Shown piece after piece: positions 1,784 to 26,441 of a stretch of DNA of 42,749 nt. This DNA comes from an uncultured Clostridia bacterium. GTDB taxonomy: Bacteria; Bacillota; Clostridia; Christensenellales; Borkfalkiaceae. The notes beneath the pieces were generated by a model. That model was not told the DNA's origin and searched no databases. It saw nothing but the letters and a program-made list of their open reading frames with translations. Location of the stretch: NCBI GenBank assembly GCA_944368065.1, contig CALVWV010000006.1, forward strand, positions 1 through 42,749. Reading direction: 5' to 3'. Made by a program: the position numbers and the translations under genes. Every line of letters begins with the position of its first letter. The first letter of the stretch is position 1.

Positions 1784-3688
1784 ATGGAAGAAAAAATAAA
1801 CGGGGCAAGTCCCCTCAACGAAAATGCGGAAAATGCCGCGCCCGCCGACAAAACTGCGGCCGCTGCGGAAGACTGCGCCGTTAAGTTCGACGGCGTCACT
1901 TTTTCGTACGCGGAAGGGTCCGCGCCCGCTCTGAAAAACGTTTCGCTCACCGTAAAAAAAGGCGAATTTCTGGCGATAATCGGCCACAACGGCAGCGGCA
2001 AATCTACGCTCGCCCGATTAATCAACGGACTTTTGCTGCCCGATTCGGGCAAGGTCACCGTCTTCGGACTGGACACTTCGGAGGGCAAGAACCCTCTGAA
2101 AATAAGAAGGCGCGCGGGCATTGTTTTCCAGAACCCGGACAACCAGATGGTCGCCTCTATCATCGAGGACGACGTCGCCTTCGGCCCTGAAAACCTCGGC
2201 GTGGAGCGCGAAGAGATAGGCCGCCGCATAGACTGGGCGTTGAAAGCCGTCGGCATGGAAGCATACCGCACGGGCACGCCCTCCCGTCTTTCGGGCGGAC
2301 AGAAGCAGCGCATAGCCATAGCCGGCGTGCTCGCAATAAAGCCCGACATAATAATTCTTGACGAATCCACCGCAATGCTCGACCCCCGCGGCCGCAGGGA
2401 GGTTATGGGCGTAGTTTCAAAACTCAACAAAGAGGAAGGACTGACGGCAATACTCATAACCCACTTTATGGAGGAAGCCCTGCTCGCCGACCGCACGATA
2501 GTCATGAACAGGGGCGAAATTGTAATGCAGGGCACGCCGTCGGACATATTTCTGCACAGCGAGCGGCTGGAAGCTTACAATTTAAGTCTGCCGCGCATAG
2601 GCAGAATATGCAAAGCGTTACAGAAAAGCGGCGTAGGCGTTGCAGACTGCCTTTCGCCCGAAGCGCTCGCCGAAGAGATTGCCCAGGAGGTTGAAAAACT
2701 CGGGGCAGCAAGGCGTTCGTTGCCATATATTCCCGCACCTTCCGGAAATTCAAGCCACGAATGGGACATAGACGTAAAGGATCTCACTTTCACCTATTCC
2801 GCCAAATCGCCGTTCGCGTCAAAGGCGCTCAAGGGCATAAATCTGCACATAGACGAGGGCGAATTTTTCGGAATAATAGGCCATACGGGCAGCGGCAAAT
2901 CCACGCTCGTTCAGCATCTGAACGCCCTTATCAAGCTTCCTCAGGCAAATAAAAAATACCGCGCCAAGAAACCCAAAAAAGGGCAGCCCGCACCCGTTCT
3001 TCCGCATATATCCGTGGGGCAATTCAATCTTGCGGATAAAAAATGCGACTTCCTCAAGCTGAGGGAGAGCGTGGGAATGGTCTTCCAGTACCCCGAATAT
3101 CAGCTGTTTGCCGAAACGGTTTCGGCGGACGTGGCGTTCGGACTCAAAAACTTCCGCAAGGGCATAACGCCCGAACAGACCGAAGCCGCCGTGCGCGACG
3201 CGCTGGAGATGGTGGGACTTTCCTACGAAGAAGTCAAGGACAAGTCGCCTTTCGACCTTTCCGGCGGACAGAAGCGCCGCGTGGCGATAGCCGGCGTAAT
3301 AGTAACCCGCCCGCACATACTCATACTCGACGAACCCGCGGCGGGACTCGACCCCCTCGGCAAGAAGGAGATAATGGAGCTTCTGCACAAAATACACCGC
3401 GAATGGTGCAGCACGGTGATAGTGGTTTCCCACGATATGGACGAAATTGCCGATAACTGCACGAAGGCGGCGGTTATATCTGACGGCGAAGTCGCCGACT
3501 GCGCCTCCCCGCGCGAGCTCTTCAGAAAGGCGGACGAGCTCACTTCGCTCGGGCTGGACGTGCCCCTCACCGCCAAAGCGTGCGCGCGGCTTAAAGAACT
3601 CGGAATAGAAATAGATACCGACTTCACCTGCGAAGATTTTGCAGATAAGGTAATAAGTCTGTTCGAAGGGGGTAAGCAAGATGCTTAA
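1784..3688 (+). CDS. ecfA: Fused ECF transporter ATPase EcfA1-EcfA2 (two ABC domains in one chain)
   Basis: The 634-residue chain carries two complete ABC ATPase domains. Domain 1 has Walker A GHNGSGKST (67-75), Q116, LSGGQ (169-173), Walker B ending DES (193-195) and switch H227, an EcfA1-like set. Domain 2 has Walker A GHTGSGKST (366-374), Q435, LSGGQ (492-496), DEPAAGLDP from 517 and H550, an EcfA2-like set. In known ECF transporters these ATPases are normally two separate proteins that dimerise and drive EcfT plus interchangeable vitamin-binding S-components. A Lys/Pro-rich stretch at about 388-416 inserts into domain 2 between Walker A and the Q-loop. The first 30 residues are an Ala/Glu-rich extension. 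The next gene, ecfT, overlaps the stop by 8 bases, and no S-component lies nearby, as is usual for group II ECF systems. Function is secure; the fusion is what the reading frame shows. Confidence 0.95.
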   Translation: MEEKINGASPLNENAENAAPADKTAAAAEDCAVKFDGVTFSYAEGSAPALKNVSLTVKKGEFLAIIGHNGSGKSTLARLINGLLLPDSGKVTVFGLDTSEGKNPLKIRRRAGIVFQNPDNQMVASIIEDDVAFGPENLGVEREEIGRRIDWALKAVGMEAYRTGTPSRLSGGQKQRIAIAGVLAIKPDIIILDESTAMLDPRGRREVMGVVSKLNKEEGLTAILITHFMEEALLADRTIVMNRGEIVMQGTPSDIFLHSERLEAYNLSLPRIGRICKALQKSGVGVADCLSPEALAEEIAQEVEKLGAARRSLPYIPAPSGNSSHEWDIDVKDLTFTYSAKSPFASKALKGINLHIDEGEFFGIIGHTGSGKSTLVQHLNALIKLPQANKKYRAKKPKKGQPAPVLPHISVGQFNLADKKCDFLKLRESVGMVFQYPEYQLFAETVSADVAFGLKNFRKGITPEQTEAAVRDALEMVGLSYEEVKDKSPFDLSGGQKRRVAIAGVIVTRPHILILDEPAAGLDPLGKKEIMELLHKIHREWCSTVIVVSHDMDEIADNCTKAAVISDGEVADCASPRELFRKADELTSLGLDVPLTAKACARLKELGIEIDTDFTCEDFADKVISLFEGGKQDA

Positions 3689-13308: not shown

Positions 13309-13882
13309 GACTTTTTTCCTTATATAAAATAAATATTTTTCCGAAGTTTTTGATTTGGCTTACCAGCCTTTTGGGTTTGGCTTGCCCATATCTGAGGCAT
13401 GCGCCTTTGCAGAACCTGCCGCCCATAAAACGCTGGCTGCTGCAAGGTATGCGCCGGCTCATAAAAATTTTGCCGCGCCTTGAAAAATCCGAAATAAAAA
13501 AATAACGCGCAGCGCCGCCGCGCTCCGCGTAAAAAGACTGCAACAAAAACACCTTTTACAAAATAGCGCAACGCATAAAGCGACAGTTGCAAGGGTATTG
13601 ACCTTTGCACCCAGCACAGATTAAAGGGATTTTTCTGCACTTCGGCGGCGATGCCCTTTTTTCGCGGAGAATAAGCAATTCCCTTAAAATCCAACTCCGC
13701 GCGTACTCATGCTCAGCCGCTCCTCTATTCAGTAATGTAAATATAACACAGCTCGGCGCAAATGTAAAGAATTTTATTAAACCTCAATTAAAATAATTGA
13801 AAAAATATTCTCTATGCTGTATAATACTGTAAATGCAGGGAGCAGAAGCGTGCCCTGCACAAATCAATTCAAGGATGCAAAG
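13309..13882. other. Divergent intergenic region upstream of asd
   Basis: No gene is supported here; short frames in it lack ribosome sites. An imperfect inverted repeat at 13588-13609 (TGCAAGGGT and ACCTTTGCA around four bases) could be an operator. The asd-side leader is long and has several short GC-rich complementary segments. I looked for a lysine riboswitch or T-box and recognised neither. The right end holds the promoter at 13797-13825. Confidence 0.5.
13797..13825 (+). promoter_or_regulatory. Promoter of the membrane protein-methyltransferase pair
   Basis: TTGAAA (13797-13802), 17 bases, TATAAT (13820-13825). It overlaps an in-frame ATG at 13814, which argues for the later start at 13883. 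Confidence 0.8.
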
Positions 13883-19468: not shown

Positions 19469-19510
19469 GCGGCGGGCGGAAAAATTTTTTCCGCCCGCCG
19501 CTTCTTTTTT
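19469..19510. terminator. Bidirectional terminator between the hslO operon and the CotF-like pair
   Basis: GCGGCGGGCGGAAAAA (19469-19484) pairs with TTTTTCCGCCCGCCGC (19486-19501). T-rich sequence follows on the plus strand, and an A run (about 19460-19465) supplies the tail on the minus strand. Confidence 0.85.
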
Positions 19511-19821
19511 TACTTTGCCTGAGCGGGCTTGCCCGCTTTTAAAGAATTCTGCTGTTTCTTGAACATATCGTTGGCTTGGTCTATCATATCCTTTTTAGCG
19601 GGAGGGGCTTCGTAATAGCCGCGCGCGCTCATCTGCTGGTAAAGGGTGTACTGGTTCTGCGCAACCGCCATAAGGTTATCGGAAAAATTTTTGCGGATAT
19701 TTTTGCCGCTTCCCTCGTAAAGCGCGGTGGTGTAAAGGGACATAAGGCTCTTTTCGCTGTCAAGCATATCCTGCAGTGCGTCCTTTTCGCAAAGTGAAAT
19801 ATCGCTTTTAGTAAGCTTCAT
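19510..19821 (-). CDS. CotF-like spore coat family protein (larger partner)
   Basis: The 103-residue, helix-rich protein begins MKLTKSDISLCEKDALQDML. Its DSEKSLMSLYTTALYEGSGKNIRKNF segment and a later QYTLYQQMSARGYYEAP motif match the CotF/ferritin-like coat family of Clostridia and Bacilli. In spore formers these proteins coat the spore; in others they are of unclear function. The start has an AGGAGG site. A related 62-residue gene lies 13 bases upstream on the same strand, a common two-gene arrangement. Whether this organism sporulates cannot be decided from the window. Confidence 0.85.
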   Translation of the reverse strand: MKLTKSDISLCEKDALQDMLDSEKSLMSLYTTALYEGSGKNIRKNFSDNLMAVAQNQYTLYQQMSARGYYEAPPAKKDMIDQANDMFKKQQNSLKAGKPAQAK

Positions 19822-20123: not shown

Positions 20124-20153
20124 TTGACTTTATGCAAAGCAGGGTTATATAAT
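20124..20153 (+). promoter_or_regulatory. Promoter of the riboswitch-antiporter unit
   Basis: TTGACT (20124-20129), 18 bases, TATAAT (20148-20153). The predicted start near 20160 places the aptamer at the very 5' end of the transcript. Confidence 0.8.
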
Positions 20154-20160
20154 TCTTTAT

Positions 20161-20227
20161 GTCAGGGGAATGAGGTTCTCCCCAAGATTTAATCTTAAAC
20201 CGCTTTTAAAAGCTGATGACCTCTGCG
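20161..20227 (+). ncRNA. Fluoride (crcB-motif) riboswitch aptamer
   Basis: The element matches the fluoride riboswitch as I know it. GGGG (20165-20168) pairs with CCCC (20180-20183) to form P1. A small extra hairpin (AAGAT and ATCTT, about 20184-20196) follows. Then AAACCGC leads into GCUU (20202-20205) pairing with AAGC (20210-20213), and the conserved GCUGAUG follows. The loop-1 pseudoknot is preserved: GAGGU (20172-20176) pairs with ACCUC (20219-20223), as the corresponding bases do in the Thermotoga petrophila structure. Known fluoride riboswitches bind F- through Mg2+ and turn on fluoride export genes. Confidence 0.9.
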
Positions 20228-20263
20228 TTTTTCACACGCGGAGCATCGGCTTTTTTGTTTTTT
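20208..20263 (+). terminator. Expression platform: terminator overlapping the fluoride aptamer
   Basis: The 3' half of the aptamer (AAAAGCUGAUG, then CUCUGCGU) pairs with ACGCGGAG and CAUCGGCUUUU. T runs follow at 20251-20256 and 20258-20263. Terminator and aptamer are mutually exclusive, so fluoride binding should prevent termination (an ON switch). AAGGAG follows just before the antiporter ATG. Confidence 0.85.
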
Positions 20264-20273
20264 AAGGAGCGTT

Positions 20274-21509
20274 ATGAATTTTCTTACTTCTCTTGCTGTA
20301 ATCTGCATATGCGCATTGCTGCTCGGTTCAATTCTGTCAAAAATAAAGCTTCCGCCCCTTATCGGAATGCTGGTTACAGGCATAGTGCTCGGTCCTTACG
20401 TGCTCGATCTGATATCGCCGTCCATTCTCGGCATCTCTGCCGATTTAAGGCAGCTCGCGCTCATAATAATTCTTGCGCGCGCCGGGCTCAACCTCAATCT
20501 TAAAGACCTTAAAAAGAACGGCGTTTCGGCTGCTTTGATGTGCTTTGTGCCCGCCACCGCAGAAATTGCGGGGTATATGCTGTTCGGCACGCTCATACTC
20601 AGGATGTCGCTTATAGACGCGGCGCTTTTAGGCAGCGTAATGGCGGCAGTGTCGCCCGCGGTGGTCGTTCCGCGCATGCTTAAACTCAAAGAGACGGGTT
20701 ACGGTACGGATAAAGGCATACCCGACATGATTATGACGGGCGCGTCCGCGGACGATGTCTATGTCATAGTGCTGTTCACGTCGCTTTCGTCCATGGCGGG
20801 CGGCGGCAGCTTTTCCTGGAATTTTGTGTGGCAGGTGCCAGTATCAATAGTGCTCGGAACAGGGGTGGGGCTTGCAATCGGTCTGCTTTTCGTTCTGTTT
20901 ATCAAAAAGATTCATATGCGCGACAGTATTAAGGTAATACTTATTTTAAGCATATCATTTTTGTTCGTAGCGCTCGAAGACGCCGTGGAAAAGTGGGTGC
21001 CGTACTCCGGTCTGCTTTCGGTAATTGCCTTCGGCGCGGTTATCTTTGCCAGGCACGCCGAGTGCGCAAAAAGGCTTTCGCAAAAGTTTTCAAAGCTGTG
21101 GATATTTGCCGAAATTCTTTTGTTTGTGTTCGTCGGCGCGGAAGTGAATATAGGGTATGCGCTGCAGAACTGCGGACTTATAATATGCGTCATTCTGCTC
21201 GCGCTGATATTCAGAATGGCGGGCGTGTTTCTGTGCGTTGCCGTATCCAAGCTAAACGCAAAGGAGAGGCTGTTCTGTATGATAGCGTACTCGCCTAAAG
21301 CCACGGTGCAGGCGGCGATAGGCGCAATACCGCTTACAATGGGGCTCGCCTGCGGACAGACCATTCTTACGGCGGCGGTGCTTGCAATAATAATAACTGC
21401 GCCGCTCGGCGCGTTCCTTACAGACCTTACCTATAAAAAGCTGCTTAAAAAGGCGGAAAGGGAGCAGCCTGTCCCTGTCGGCGCAGCGGAAGATGTCGCA
21501 GCTGAATAA
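20274..21509 (+). CDS. Cation/proton antiporter (CPA family) under fluoride riboswitch control
   Basis: The 411-residue integral membrane protein has 11-13 hydrophobic segments. It begins directly with a membrane helix (FLTSLAVICICALLLGSIL). Typical Na+/H+ exchanger-domain features are present: LPPLIGMLVTGIVLGPYVLD near residue 26, the LRQLALIIILARAGLNL segment, and an ASADDVYVIVLF segment with paired acidic residues in the position used for ion binding in this family. Antiporters are a known minority class of genes under fluoride riboswitches, so a role in fluoride tolerance or in handling the accompanying ions is likely by inference. No crcB or eriC-F gene is nearby. Confidence 0.9.
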   Translation: MNFLTSLAVICICALLLGSILSKIKLPPLIGMLVTGIVLGPYVLDLISPSILGISADLRQLALIIILARAGLNLNLKDLKKNGVSAALMCFVPATAEIAGYMLFGTLILRMSLIDAALLGSVMAAVSPAVVVPRMLKLKETGYGTDKGIPDMIMTGASADDVYVIVLFTSLSSMAGGGSFSWNFVWQVPVSIVLGTGVGLAIGLLFVLFIKKIHMRDSIKVILILSISFLFVALEDAVEKWVPYSGLLSVIAFGAVIFARHAECAKRLSQKFSKLWIFAEILLFVFVGAEVNIGYALQNCGLIICVILLALIFRMAGVFLCVAVSKLNAKERLFCMIAYSPKATVQAAIGAIPLTMGLACGQTILTAAVLAIIITAPLGAFLTDLTYKKLLKKAEREQPVPVGAAEDVAAE

Positions 21510-21548
21510 TTAAGTCCGCCGCGGCAGACTCTGCCGCGGCGGACTTAA
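21510..21548 (+). terminator. Long GC-rich palindrome after the antiporter gene
   Basis: A perfect 19-base inverted repeat (21510-21528 with 21530-21548) begins directly after the stop codon. It is followed by a G run, not T residues, so it may act as an mRNA 3'-end stabiliser or imperfect terminator. Confidence 0.6.
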
Positions 21549-21786: not shown

Positions 21787-21874
<88 letters not shown>

Positions 21875-23719: not shown

Positions 23720-24538
23720 TTATCCGCCGCGGCGCTTTACCACAACCCGCTCCACGACGGCGACCACGGCGTACATTCCGCCAGCAAGAAGGCAGAGTAT
23801 GAACGTCGCCGCCATCACGAGGTCGAGGCGGAAAACCTGACCGCCGTAAACTATGAGGTAGCCAAGCCCTGCGCGCGATACTATGTATTCGCCCATAATC
23901 GAGCCTATCCACGCGAGGCCGACGGCAACTTTAAGAGTATTCATAAAGGCGGGGAGGGAGGCGGGAATTATGAGCTTTAAAAGCATTGCGCCCTTGCCCG
24001 CGCCCATCGAGCGCAGAAGAAGCTGTTTTGTTCTATCCACCGCCACAAACCCTGCAAGCATGTTCATTATGCATACTATGATGCTTACGAGCACGGTCAT
24101 GAAAATTATGGCGGTATATCCCGTGCCCATCCAGATTATGATGAGCGGGCCGAGCGCTATTTTTGGCAGCGCGTTCAGAACCACTATGTAAGGTTCGAAT
24201 ATGCGCCGCACGCCGTCGTTGAGCCAAAGCAGCACGGCAATCAGATAGCCTGCGACCACGGCTATCACGAACCCCACTATAGTTTCCATAAGCGTGATGC
24301 CTATGTGGTAAAAGAGCGTGCCCGCCCCTGCAAGGTCGGCTATGGTAGTCGCCACGCGCGAAGGCGAGCTGGTTATGAACGGGTCAAAAACCCCGACCTG
24401 AGCAAACAGTTCCCACAGCCCGATAATCGCGACGAGTATTGCGGCGCGCACTATGTGCACGGTGATTTTATTGCGTCTTATTTTTTTGAGGTACAGCGCG
24501 TGCTGTACGGAATAGTTGTTGTTTTTTGCGTGTTTCAT
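23720..24538 (-). CDS. ABC transporter permease, NitT/TauT type
   Basis: The 272-residue permease has about six membrane segments and the BPD-type inner-membrane domain. The coupling segment is LLLRSMGAGKGAMLLKLIIPASLPAFMNTL. An N-terminal polar stretch precedes IGLWELFAQVGVFDPFITSSPSRVA, a typical SsuC/TauC/ThiX-like opening. With the ATPase and binding protein upstream it forms an importer for a small anionic or pyrimidine-type substrate. No ribosome site is obvious before the ATG. A hairpin separates it from the ATPase gene. Confidence 0.93.
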   Translation of the reverse strand: MKHAKNNNYSVQHALYLKKIRRNKITVHIVRAAILVAIIGLWELFAQVGVFDPFITSSPSRVATTIADLAGAGTLFYHIGITLMETIVGFVIAVVAGYLIAVLLWLNDGVRRIFEPYIVVLNALPKIALGPLIIIWMGTGYTAIIFMTVLVSIIVCIMNMLAGFVAVDRTKQLLLRSMGAGKGAMLLKLIIPASLPAFMNTLKVAVGLAWIGSIMGEYIVSRAGLGYLIVYGGQVFRLDLVMAATFILCLLAGGMYAVVAVVERVVVKRRGG

Positions 24539-24615
24539 AGCGGTACGTGTATCTTTATTGTTTTATAAGTTGAAGCTTTACTGCGGCAAAGGTCTGCGCC
24601 TTGCGCCGCCTTTAA

Positions 24616-24649
24616 GCAGCGGATATGCCGCAAGCGGCATATCCGCTGC
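24616..24649. repeat. 16-base perfect inverted repeat between ABC ATPase and permease genes
   Basis: GCAGCGGATATGCCGC (24616-24631) and its reverse complement (24634-24649) flank two bases. It lies in the 116-base intercistronic gap and has no T run. It may tune relative expression within the operon. Confidence 0.7.
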
Positions 24650-24654
24650 AGAAG

Positions 24655-25383
24655 TCATAATCCCAATTCGCGCCTTAAAACTTCGAACATGGCGGCAAAA
24701 TTTCCGCTGTTCCTGCGCTTTTTCGGGCTGCCTTCGCCGAAGTCTATTTCGTGCTCGCCGACGACCCGCGCGGGGCGGGAGGAGAGCACTATCACCTTGT
24801 CGGAAAGCGCTATCGCTTCGGAAATGTCGTGCGTGACTAAAAGCGCCGTCTTCTTTTCGCTCTTTATTATGTCGTGCACGTCGTCGCATACGGCGAGCCT
24901 CGTCTGGTAATCGAGCGCGGAAAACGGTTCGTCTAACAGCAGCGTTTCGGGCTGGGCTGCCAGCGTGCGTATGAGCGCCACCCTCTGCCGCATTCCGCCC
25001 GAAAGCTGGGAGGGACTTTTTTTGAGGAAGTCCTTAAGTCCGTACTTTTCAGCAAGGGCGATTGCGTTTTTCCGCATTGCGGGCGTATTCTTTTTCTTTA
25101 TTTCGAGCGGCAGAAAAATATTTTCTTCAACCGTGCGCCAGGGGAAGAGCGCGTCTGTCTGCAGCATGTATCCGAACTGCCCGCCGCCGCGCTCCACCTT
25201 GCCGGAAGAAGGCGCTATAAGCCCCGCCGCAAGCGAAAGTATGGTACTTTTGCCGCAGCCCGAAGGACCTATAACGCAGACAAACTGACCTTCTTCTACG
25301 GAAAAGTTGAGGTTTTCCACGGCAAGCGTTTCGCCCGAAAGGGTATGGTATGTGTAGCTTACGTCAATAAATTTAAGGCTCAT
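24655..25383 (-). CDS. ABC transporter ATPase, NitT/TauT type
   Basis: The 242-residue ATPase has Walker [10 protein letters not shown] (about 39-47), the Q-loop region [18 protein letters not shown], signature LSGGMRQRV and Walker [12 protein letters not shown], followed by VTHDISEA with the switch histidine. This motif set is characteristic of nitrate/sulfonate/taurine/thiamine-precursor importers. It overlaps the binding-protein gene by 4 bases (ATGA), so the two are coupled. Confidence 0.95.
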
Positions 25384-26375
25384 TTATACACTTCTTCATA
25401 AACTTTCTGCGCCGTTTCGGTAAGAATGAGTTCGTCGAAACCGACGCGCCGCTCAAGCTCGCCAGAATTTTCAATTACGTCCTGAAGCCTCGTGAAAGCC
25501 TCTTCCTCCATAGCCATGTTGGTGACCCAGGCGTCTATATCCTTATAAGCCTGCACGGAATTTGCAATGCTGTCTGCAGGAGTGCCGTCAAAGTAAGGAA
25601 TAAGGTATTCCGCAACGGTCGCGGCGTCGTTTTCGATGACAAATTTTGTCGCCCTTGTCACCGCGCGCAGAAGCCCTTCTATTTTTTCGGGATTTTTATC
25701 TATATAGCTCTGCTTTGCCGCAAAACAGGTGTAGGGTATCTCGCCCGACTGCGCGCCTACGGAAGCCACAATATATCCCTTGCCTTCGGCTTCATAGTCG
25801 CTCGCGGTCGGTTCGAACATCGTACAGTAATCGGCAATGCCGCTTTCGAACGCTGCCGTCATGTAGTTGAAGTCCACGTCGTAGTTGAGCGCCGCGTCTA
25901 CGCCCAGTTCTTCTATGACGTATTCGAACGTCATCGCGGGCACGCCGCCCTTGCGCCCTGCAAGTATCTCTTTGCCGTCGAGGTCCGACCACTCGAAGTC
26001 GGGTTCTGCCGTGCGCGAAACGAGGAAACTGCCGTCGCGCTTGGTGAGCTGGCCGAAAACTTTGGGCGAGTCGGAAGAGCCGCCTATGGCTATGTACAGC
26101 GCCGCTTCGGGTCCGCAGAAGCCTACGTCGGCCGAACCTGAAAGCACTGCCGCCATGGTGTTGTCTGCGCCGCCGCCGTTGGTGAATTCCACGTCGAACC
26201 CTTCGTCCTCGTAGTAGCCGAGCGCTTCGGCGAGGTACATAGGGGCGTAGAAAACGGAGTGGGTGACTTCGTTAATGCGCACAACGTCGGAGCCGCCCGT
26301 GCAGCCTGCAAGCGAAAGAGGAATTGCAAGCGCCGCACAGACGGCGACAAAAATTGCTGTAATCTTTTTTTTCAT
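25380..26375 (-). CDS. ABC transporter substrate-binding lipoprotein (NMT1/THI5-like)
   Basis: I set the start at 26375 because the signal peptide begins there ([20 protein letters not shown], lipobox LAGC). An AAGGAGAG site lies upstream. The product is about 331 residues, anchored outside the membrane. The fold is the NMT1/SsuA type: [28 protein letters not shown], then [13 protein letters not shown] and [15 protein letters not shown]. Related proteins carry sulfonates, taurine, nitrate or the thiamine precursor HMP. The substrate cannot be chosen from sequence alone, and no thi or ssu genes are adjacent. It is the first gene of the importer operon, divergent from valS. Confidence 0.92.
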
Positions 26376-26441
26376 GTGAAGATGTCTCTCCTTGTCATTC
26401 AAAAAATTTATATGCTACAGTTTATGCGCGGCATGTTATGT

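Follow-up and report, generated by a model that had tools for sequence, protein, structure and literature searches.

A predicted fluoride ON switch ahead of a single NHA/SLC9B-type antiporter gene, a candidate stand-in for the CrcB and CLC-F fluoride exporters

The window analysed here, which is the whole stretch of 42,749 nucleotides from contig CALVWV010000006.1 of an uncultured Clostridia bacterium (Borkfalkiaceae; assembly GCA_944368065.1), carries on its forward strand a promoter-like site, a fluoride riboswitch aptamer, a predicted terminator that uses the 3' strand of the aptamer, and one gene for a cation/proton antiporter (Table 1). Just upstream and on the opposite strand lies the gene of a spore-coat type Coat F domain protein (19510-19821; PF07875, 51.4 bits). 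Elsewhere on the reverse strand, a lysine riboswitch (13556-13735, 73.1 bits) precedes an apparent aspartate-semialdehyde dehydrogenase, DHDPS and DapB run (13308-10465), and an ABC importer set composed of an NMT1/THI5-like binding protein, an ATPase and a permease occupies 23720-26402; no thiamine riboswitch scores above the cut-off within the window.

Table 1. Features of the riboswitch-antiporter unit (positions in the window)
Feature	Position	Strand	Basis
Promoter-like site TTGACT-18-TATAAT	20124..20153	+	11/12 consensus matches
Fluoride riboswitch aptamer	20157..20232	+	RF01734, 45.2 bits, gathering 34, E 1.7e-9
First aptamer hairpin GGGGA/UCCCC	20165..20183	+	strands 20165-20169/20179-20183; cmscan alignment, sequence
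Pseudoknot 5' strand GAGGU	20172-20176	+	inside loop of first aptamer hairpin
Extra small hairpin AAGAU-UUA-AUCUU	20184..20196	+	RF01734 alignment insert; pairs in minimum-energy fold
Second aptamer stem GCUU/AAGC, with GCUGAUG and ACCUC	20202..20223	+	sequence, cmscan, fold
Predicted intrinsic terminator with T-rich tail, using aptamer 3' strand	20208..20262	+	-24.6 kcal/mol, z -5.53
Conserved GCUGAUG	20212-20218	+	sequence
Pseudoknot 3' strand ACCUC	20219-20223	+	complementary to GAGGU
Likely ribosome-binding site AAGGAG	20264..20269	+	by eye
NHA/SLC9B-type cation/proton antiporter, 411 aa	20274..21509	+	PF00999; NHA2 sequence and fold matches
Strong inverted repeat	21510..21548	+	directly 3' of antiporter stop; -36.5 kcal/mol, z -6.43, 0/200 shuffles as low

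The first-pass annotation of this DNA had read the leader as a fluoride riboswitch, and a search with the Rfam model RF01734 bears this reading out, the match exceeding the gathering score and its cmscan alignment spanning positions 1-64 of the 64 of the model. The elements that had been described, namely a P1 stem (the GGGGA/UCCCC hairpin), a pseudoknot pairing GAGGU with ACCUC and the conserved GCUGAUG, are all present, and the extra small hairpin sits between the two aptamer stems. The match is the sole one to RF01734 in the genome assembly (1.70 Mb, 83% complete). Taken alone, the aptamer folds no better than its shuffles (z -0.40, 55 of 200 as low), its pseudoknot being outside the model of the folding program; the leader from 20157 to 20260 does fold better (z -3.36, 1 of 200 as low). 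The promoter-like site is one of four in the scanned region, against 1.7 expected in shuffles. The leader almost certainly belongs to the fluoride riboswitch family RF01734, and a response to fluoride is predicted from its sequence.

Downstream, a hairpin at 20208-20254 (-24.6 kcal/mol and z -5.53 in the fold of 20205-20260, none of 200 shuffles being as low) includes GCUGAUG together with some of ACCUC and has the T-rich tail behind it. Because of these shared nucleotides, aptamer and terminator are mutually exclusive, and since the terminator reuses the aptamer 3' strand, we predict a transcriptional ON switch that senses fluoride, as the first-pass annotation had anticipated from the same shared strand. 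Without fluoride, the aptamer 3' strand would pair within the terminator; once Mg-bound fluoride is present, this strand would stay in the pseudoknotted aptamer and the gene would be read. A simple terminator scan, which returned three sites in the region where 3.2 were expected, had none in the leader. When leaders of relatives were placed by their cmscan coordinates, a hairpin on the shared strand followed by a T tail was found, with thresholds set in this analysis, in 36 of 41 (window included; a subset of the riboswitch-linked loci), those lacking it being L028, L031, L099, L007 and L012. This count replaces a pattern-based leader scan that had detected the motif at 24 of 50 loci, with hairpin plus T tail at 19; of the 24, L112 at least was spurious.

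The product of the gene, which the first-pass annotation had called a cation/proton antiporter, matches PF00999 at 148.7 bits against a gathering score of 26.2, and we add to that call its placement in the NHA/SLC9B type. Pfam and NCBIfam say "antiporter" only, with no subfamily model above its curated cut-off: the potassium/proton antiporter model NF003716 reaches 69.4 bits against 355, and the CPA2 subfamily model TIGR00932 reaches 35.7 against 238.3. The best sequence match among solved structures is NHA2/SLC9B2 (1e-43), the next type being NhaP (5e-9). The predicted structure (mean pLDDT 83.0, pTM 0.80) is also closest to NHA2 in a Foldseek search (E 1.7e-16, TM 0.83 on the query, 32% identity), where NHA2 fills the top five places and PaNhaP follows close behind with similar TM. 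By these comparisons of sequence and of modelled fold, we assign the antiporter to the NHA/SLC9B type, with NHA2 as its closest solved relative. The ion-site residues of bison NHA2 (named in PMC8850199) are kept at five positions of six in an alignment read by eye, D277, D278, E214, R431 and T461 corresponding to D160, D161, E97, R314 and T344, and the sixth, W456, is replaced by Y339. Among 21 aligned relatives E97, D161, R314 and T344 do not vary, D160 and Y339 hardly vary, and a W-I-F-A-E stretch at 276-280 is invariant or nearly so in all 21. These ion-site residues point to the outfit of a cation/proton exchanger. The inverted repeat after the stop codon forms 18 pairs, looks perfect and has no T run after it on the forward strand; it is possibly the end of a one-gene unit. 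The next feature found is a tRNA-Ser at 21787, and the antiporter gene seems to stand alone between its leader and the repeat.

The association of riboswitch and antiporter recurs in relatives. RF01734 occurs in 12 of the 201 genomes of the window's family (11 above the cut-off), at one place in each, and all 12 matches precede the antiporter, whose start lies within about 70 bases. A profile of the antiporter finds 13 close carriers in the family, which are these 12 genomes plus G134, in which a contig start retains just the 3' part of the gene; the matches that follow, none above 97.6 bits, belong to other exchangers. In the assemblies of G051, G124, G132 and G151 (L002, L003, L009 and L005) the gene has a broken frame, and in G151 it is split over two frames. 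Among 27 relatives obtained by contig search, three of which are, by their length, contigs of the family genomes just counted, 15 have RF01734 just upstream of the antiporter at gathering score, in hosts that include Anaerococcus, Peptoniphilus, Clostridium and a Nitrospirae MAG. Eight give no match even at E 1 (L018, L029, L030, L032, L033, L034, L036 and L038), L041 gives a weak one of 19.9 bits, and L035, L037 and L039, the last of which starts within the gene, were scanned at gathering score only. Two of the relatives' loci carry peculiarities of their own. L028 has two fluoride riboswitches of equal score (1214-1281 and 2842-2909), the second of which alone precedes the antiporter, and the roughly 130 bases around the one nearly match those around the other, as though the leader had been duplicated on either side of a gene inserted on the opposite strand. 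L110 has a SECIS_3-like match at 3290-3348 (+) of 50.7 bits, below the cut-off of 63.

A sample of 398 phylum genomes contains 35 carriers of the antiporter (matches at 1e-35 or better), which fall under 21 family labels, and the riboswitch lies directly upstream in 30 of them (26 by comparison of places, with the addition of G233, G409, G448 and G295). G603 has an upstream match of 29.1 bits, below the cut-off, and no upstream riboswitch was found in G226, G430, G434 and G496, the gene of G430 starting 152 bases from a contig end. Conversely, 32 of the 156 genomes with a riboswitch match carry the antiporter, which agrees with the earlier statement that antiporters are a minority target of this riboswitch class. 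On a quick tree of the antiporters, where the outgroups sit on very long branches and L019 and L023 are left out for their broken frames, the RF01734 labels cluster (9 changes against 17.6 in shuffles); the tree does not allow the riboswitch link to be traced to one origin. The antiporter lineage is tied to the fluoride riboswitch.

Two families of bacterial fluoride exporters are recognised, and many bacteria with fluoride riboswitches have neither. CrcB (PF02537) gives no match in the genome of the window (1.70 Mb, 83% complete), and of its two CLC matches the one above the cut-off, L013, was rejected as a CLC-F, since it has GSGVP and its best solved match is ClcA. For CLC-F we searched with L060, itself matched best among solved structures by a CLC-type fluoride/proton antiporter (1.3e-78), and this query has no match there at 1e-25. 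The first-pass remark that neither crcB nor eriC-F lies nearby holds, and extends to the whole of this assembly. CrcB was also absent from a set of 33 carrier and relative genomes, among them seven non-Bacillota without the riboswitch (G212, G213 and G215-G219). We do not take the 33 absences as telling: the window's family has no CrcB in any of its 201 genomes, 188 of which also lack a close antiporter, so that the absence of CrcB needs no antiporter, and the phylum sample was used instead.

In that sample CrcB occurs in 162 genomes, which are 0 of the 35 carriers and 162 of the 363 others (Fisher p 4.9e-9); among the genomes with a riboswitch match it is absent from all 32 carriers and present in 85 of the 124 others, and no genome holds both CrcB and the antiporter. 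At the level of families, with a total of 140 assumed, CrcB is found in some sampled genome of 4 of the 21 carrier families against 64 of the 119 others (p 0.004). Shuffling the CrcB labels of the riboswitch genomes within families gives 1.2 overlaps expected and zero in 13% of cases (P 0.13), a weak result. The CLC-F query covered 80 of the 398 genomes, namely the 35 carriers, 25 of 39 with the riboswitch and neither gene, and 20 of 85 with riboswitch and CrcB, and it matched in 2, 7 and 0 of them respectively. Six of the nine matches lie directly behind a riboswitch (G235, G243, G384, G440, G465 and G483); those in the carriers G290 and G226 do not, the sole riboswitch of G290 being on the antiporter and its CLC-F-like gene elsewhere. 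By the CrcB and CLC-F searches, a known exporter was not found in 33 of the 35 carriers. Outside this sample, G151 has both the antiporter and a true CLC-F, and L058 (G202) and L050 (G221) resemble CLC-F by eye. The transporters also change places within genera. In genus g46 the riboswitch is followed by the antiporter in G320 and by CLC-F in G235, G384 and G483, genus g203 has the antiporter in G448 and CrcB in G584, and genus g135 has the antiporter in G542 and CrcB in G338.

From this distribution of CrcB and CLC-F and from the three within-genus swaps, we conclude that the antiporter probably takes the place of the known exporters, either by direct export or by way of the pH gradient, and that it would lower cytoplasmic fluoride. 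The more specific reading, in which the fluoride ON switch and its single-gene NHA/SLC9B-type antiporter constitute the fluoride-resistance transporter of the cell in replacement of CrcB/Fluc and CLC-F, has arguments that we find evenly balanced. The antiporter may export fluoride itself in exchange with protons and so add a third kind to the bacterial fluoride exporters, a possibility that we judge serious and somewhat short of an even chance. It is only tentatively that we extend this to a general proposal, according to which riboswitch-controlled antiporters of this type would form a third exporter class, evolutionarily interchangeable with CrcB/Fluc and CLC-F, and kin of NHA2 would move an anion or HF. 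An anion-binding precedent exists in the clade, where fly Nha1 has been suggested to favour chloride (PMC9174904, citing Chintapalli 2015). All the evidence that speaks for a fluoride-exporter function is evidence of distribution; the retained cation-binding aspartates, for their part, disfavour direct fluoride transport and favour cation/H+ exchange. An exchange of Na+ (or K+) for H+ of this sort, if electroneutral, could detoxify without any exporter: it would let protons in and lower the pH gradient, removing what holds HF back in the cell as F-, and HF would diffuse out. The main ion-site residues of NHA2 are kept apart from the W456 to Y339 change, exchange by NHA2 is electroneutral (PMC8850199), a yeast study cited in a review (PMC11139923) reports fluoride resistance through intracellular acidification, and the absence of exporters would be explained as well as by direct export. 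We nevertheless hold this route to be rather unlikely, since it would at best equalise fluoride inside and outside, which makes it weaker than an exporter, and by itself it leaves unexplained why CrcB was dropped and not kept alongside.

The first-pass annotation had offered two roles, a fluoride-tolerance exporter or a counter to the acid load that accompanies HF entry; its riboswitch, predicted ON switch, target and missing exporters all stand, and of the two roles the exporter is, on the distribution evidence, the better candidate. The field reads riboswitch-linked antiporters as accessories in pH or cation homeostasis, which here would require an unknown or undetected exporter beside them, and we consider this improbable. 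Driven by the proton gradient, a cation/H+ antiporter imports protons, and it could therefore relieve an acid load only if it ran on an inward Na+ gradient. The acid-load reading makes the antiporter accessory to an exporter, yet CrcB is absent from all 35 carriers and a CLC-F match from 33, and the unit of the window consists of one gene. What speaks for it is that the review has such antiporters countering acid load (PMC11139923), that a fluoride riboswitch of C. difficile drives an operon of CLC-F together with an NhaP-type antiporter, from which it follows that an antiporter can be accessory (PMC11477304), and that CLC-F-like genes occur in G290, G226 and G151. We give still less credit to the idea that the exclusion is an accident of ancestry, in which lineages without CrcB happen to hold the antiporter and the fluoride link is a matter of regulatory history; the non-significant family-stratified shuffles and the clustered riboswitch labels on the quick tree would suit it, against which stand the spread of the carriers over many family labels, the swaps inside genera and the retention of the riboswitch in most carriers. 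A chance match to the riboswitch model, finally, is hardly conceivable: the unremarkable fold of the isolated aptamer is outweighed by the E-value of a match above the cut-off, by the same position in relatives of many families and by the shared-strand terminator in most of their leaders.

The association of fluoride riboswitches with antiporters is already known (PMC11139923). In the open-access literature we found neither an NHA/SLC9B-type bacterial protein with a fluoride function, nor an assignment of the riboswitch-linked antiporters to NHA/SLC9B, nor the pattern of exclusion with CrcB. If this lineage does the job of an exporter, it would account for fluoride resistance in a set of anaerobes, it would constitute a third transport solution, and it would bear on the disputed handling of halides by NHA-type proteins. 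Even if it acted by cation/proton exchange, the cell could answer fluoride through pH alone.

Compared with the known systems, the leader shares with the RF01734 riboswitches the full-length match, both stems, the strands of the pseudoknot, GCUGAUG and a terminator on the shared strand, and adds an insert of 12 bases able to form the extra small hairpin; comparable inserts also occur before crcB genes, as judged from the match length in G223. Na+/H+ antiporters are a known class linked to fluoride riboswitches (Baker 2012, via PMC11139923) and, according to the same review, the commonest target after the exporters. The window has likewise an antiporter behind a fluoride riboswitch; set against that class as the review describes it, it belongs to a defined NHA/SLC9B-type lineage and stands alone, its host genomes having no CrcB and, for the most part, no CLC-F. 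With NHA2/SLC9B2 it shares the best sequence and fold match and the equivalents of the two aspartates (DD), of the E214-R431 pair and of T461; it differs by a tyrosine at W456 and by the lack of the long N-terminal region, and NHA2 reads differently at the W-I-F-A-E stretch conserved among the relatives of the window antiporter. The CLC-F (EriC-F) fluoride/proton antiporters are likewise encoded by single genes directly behind fluoride riboswitches, as in G235, G384 and G483, and are unrelated to it as a protein family. CrcB/Fluc, likewise a target of the fluoride riboswitch, is a small channel, also unrelated to the antiporter of the window.
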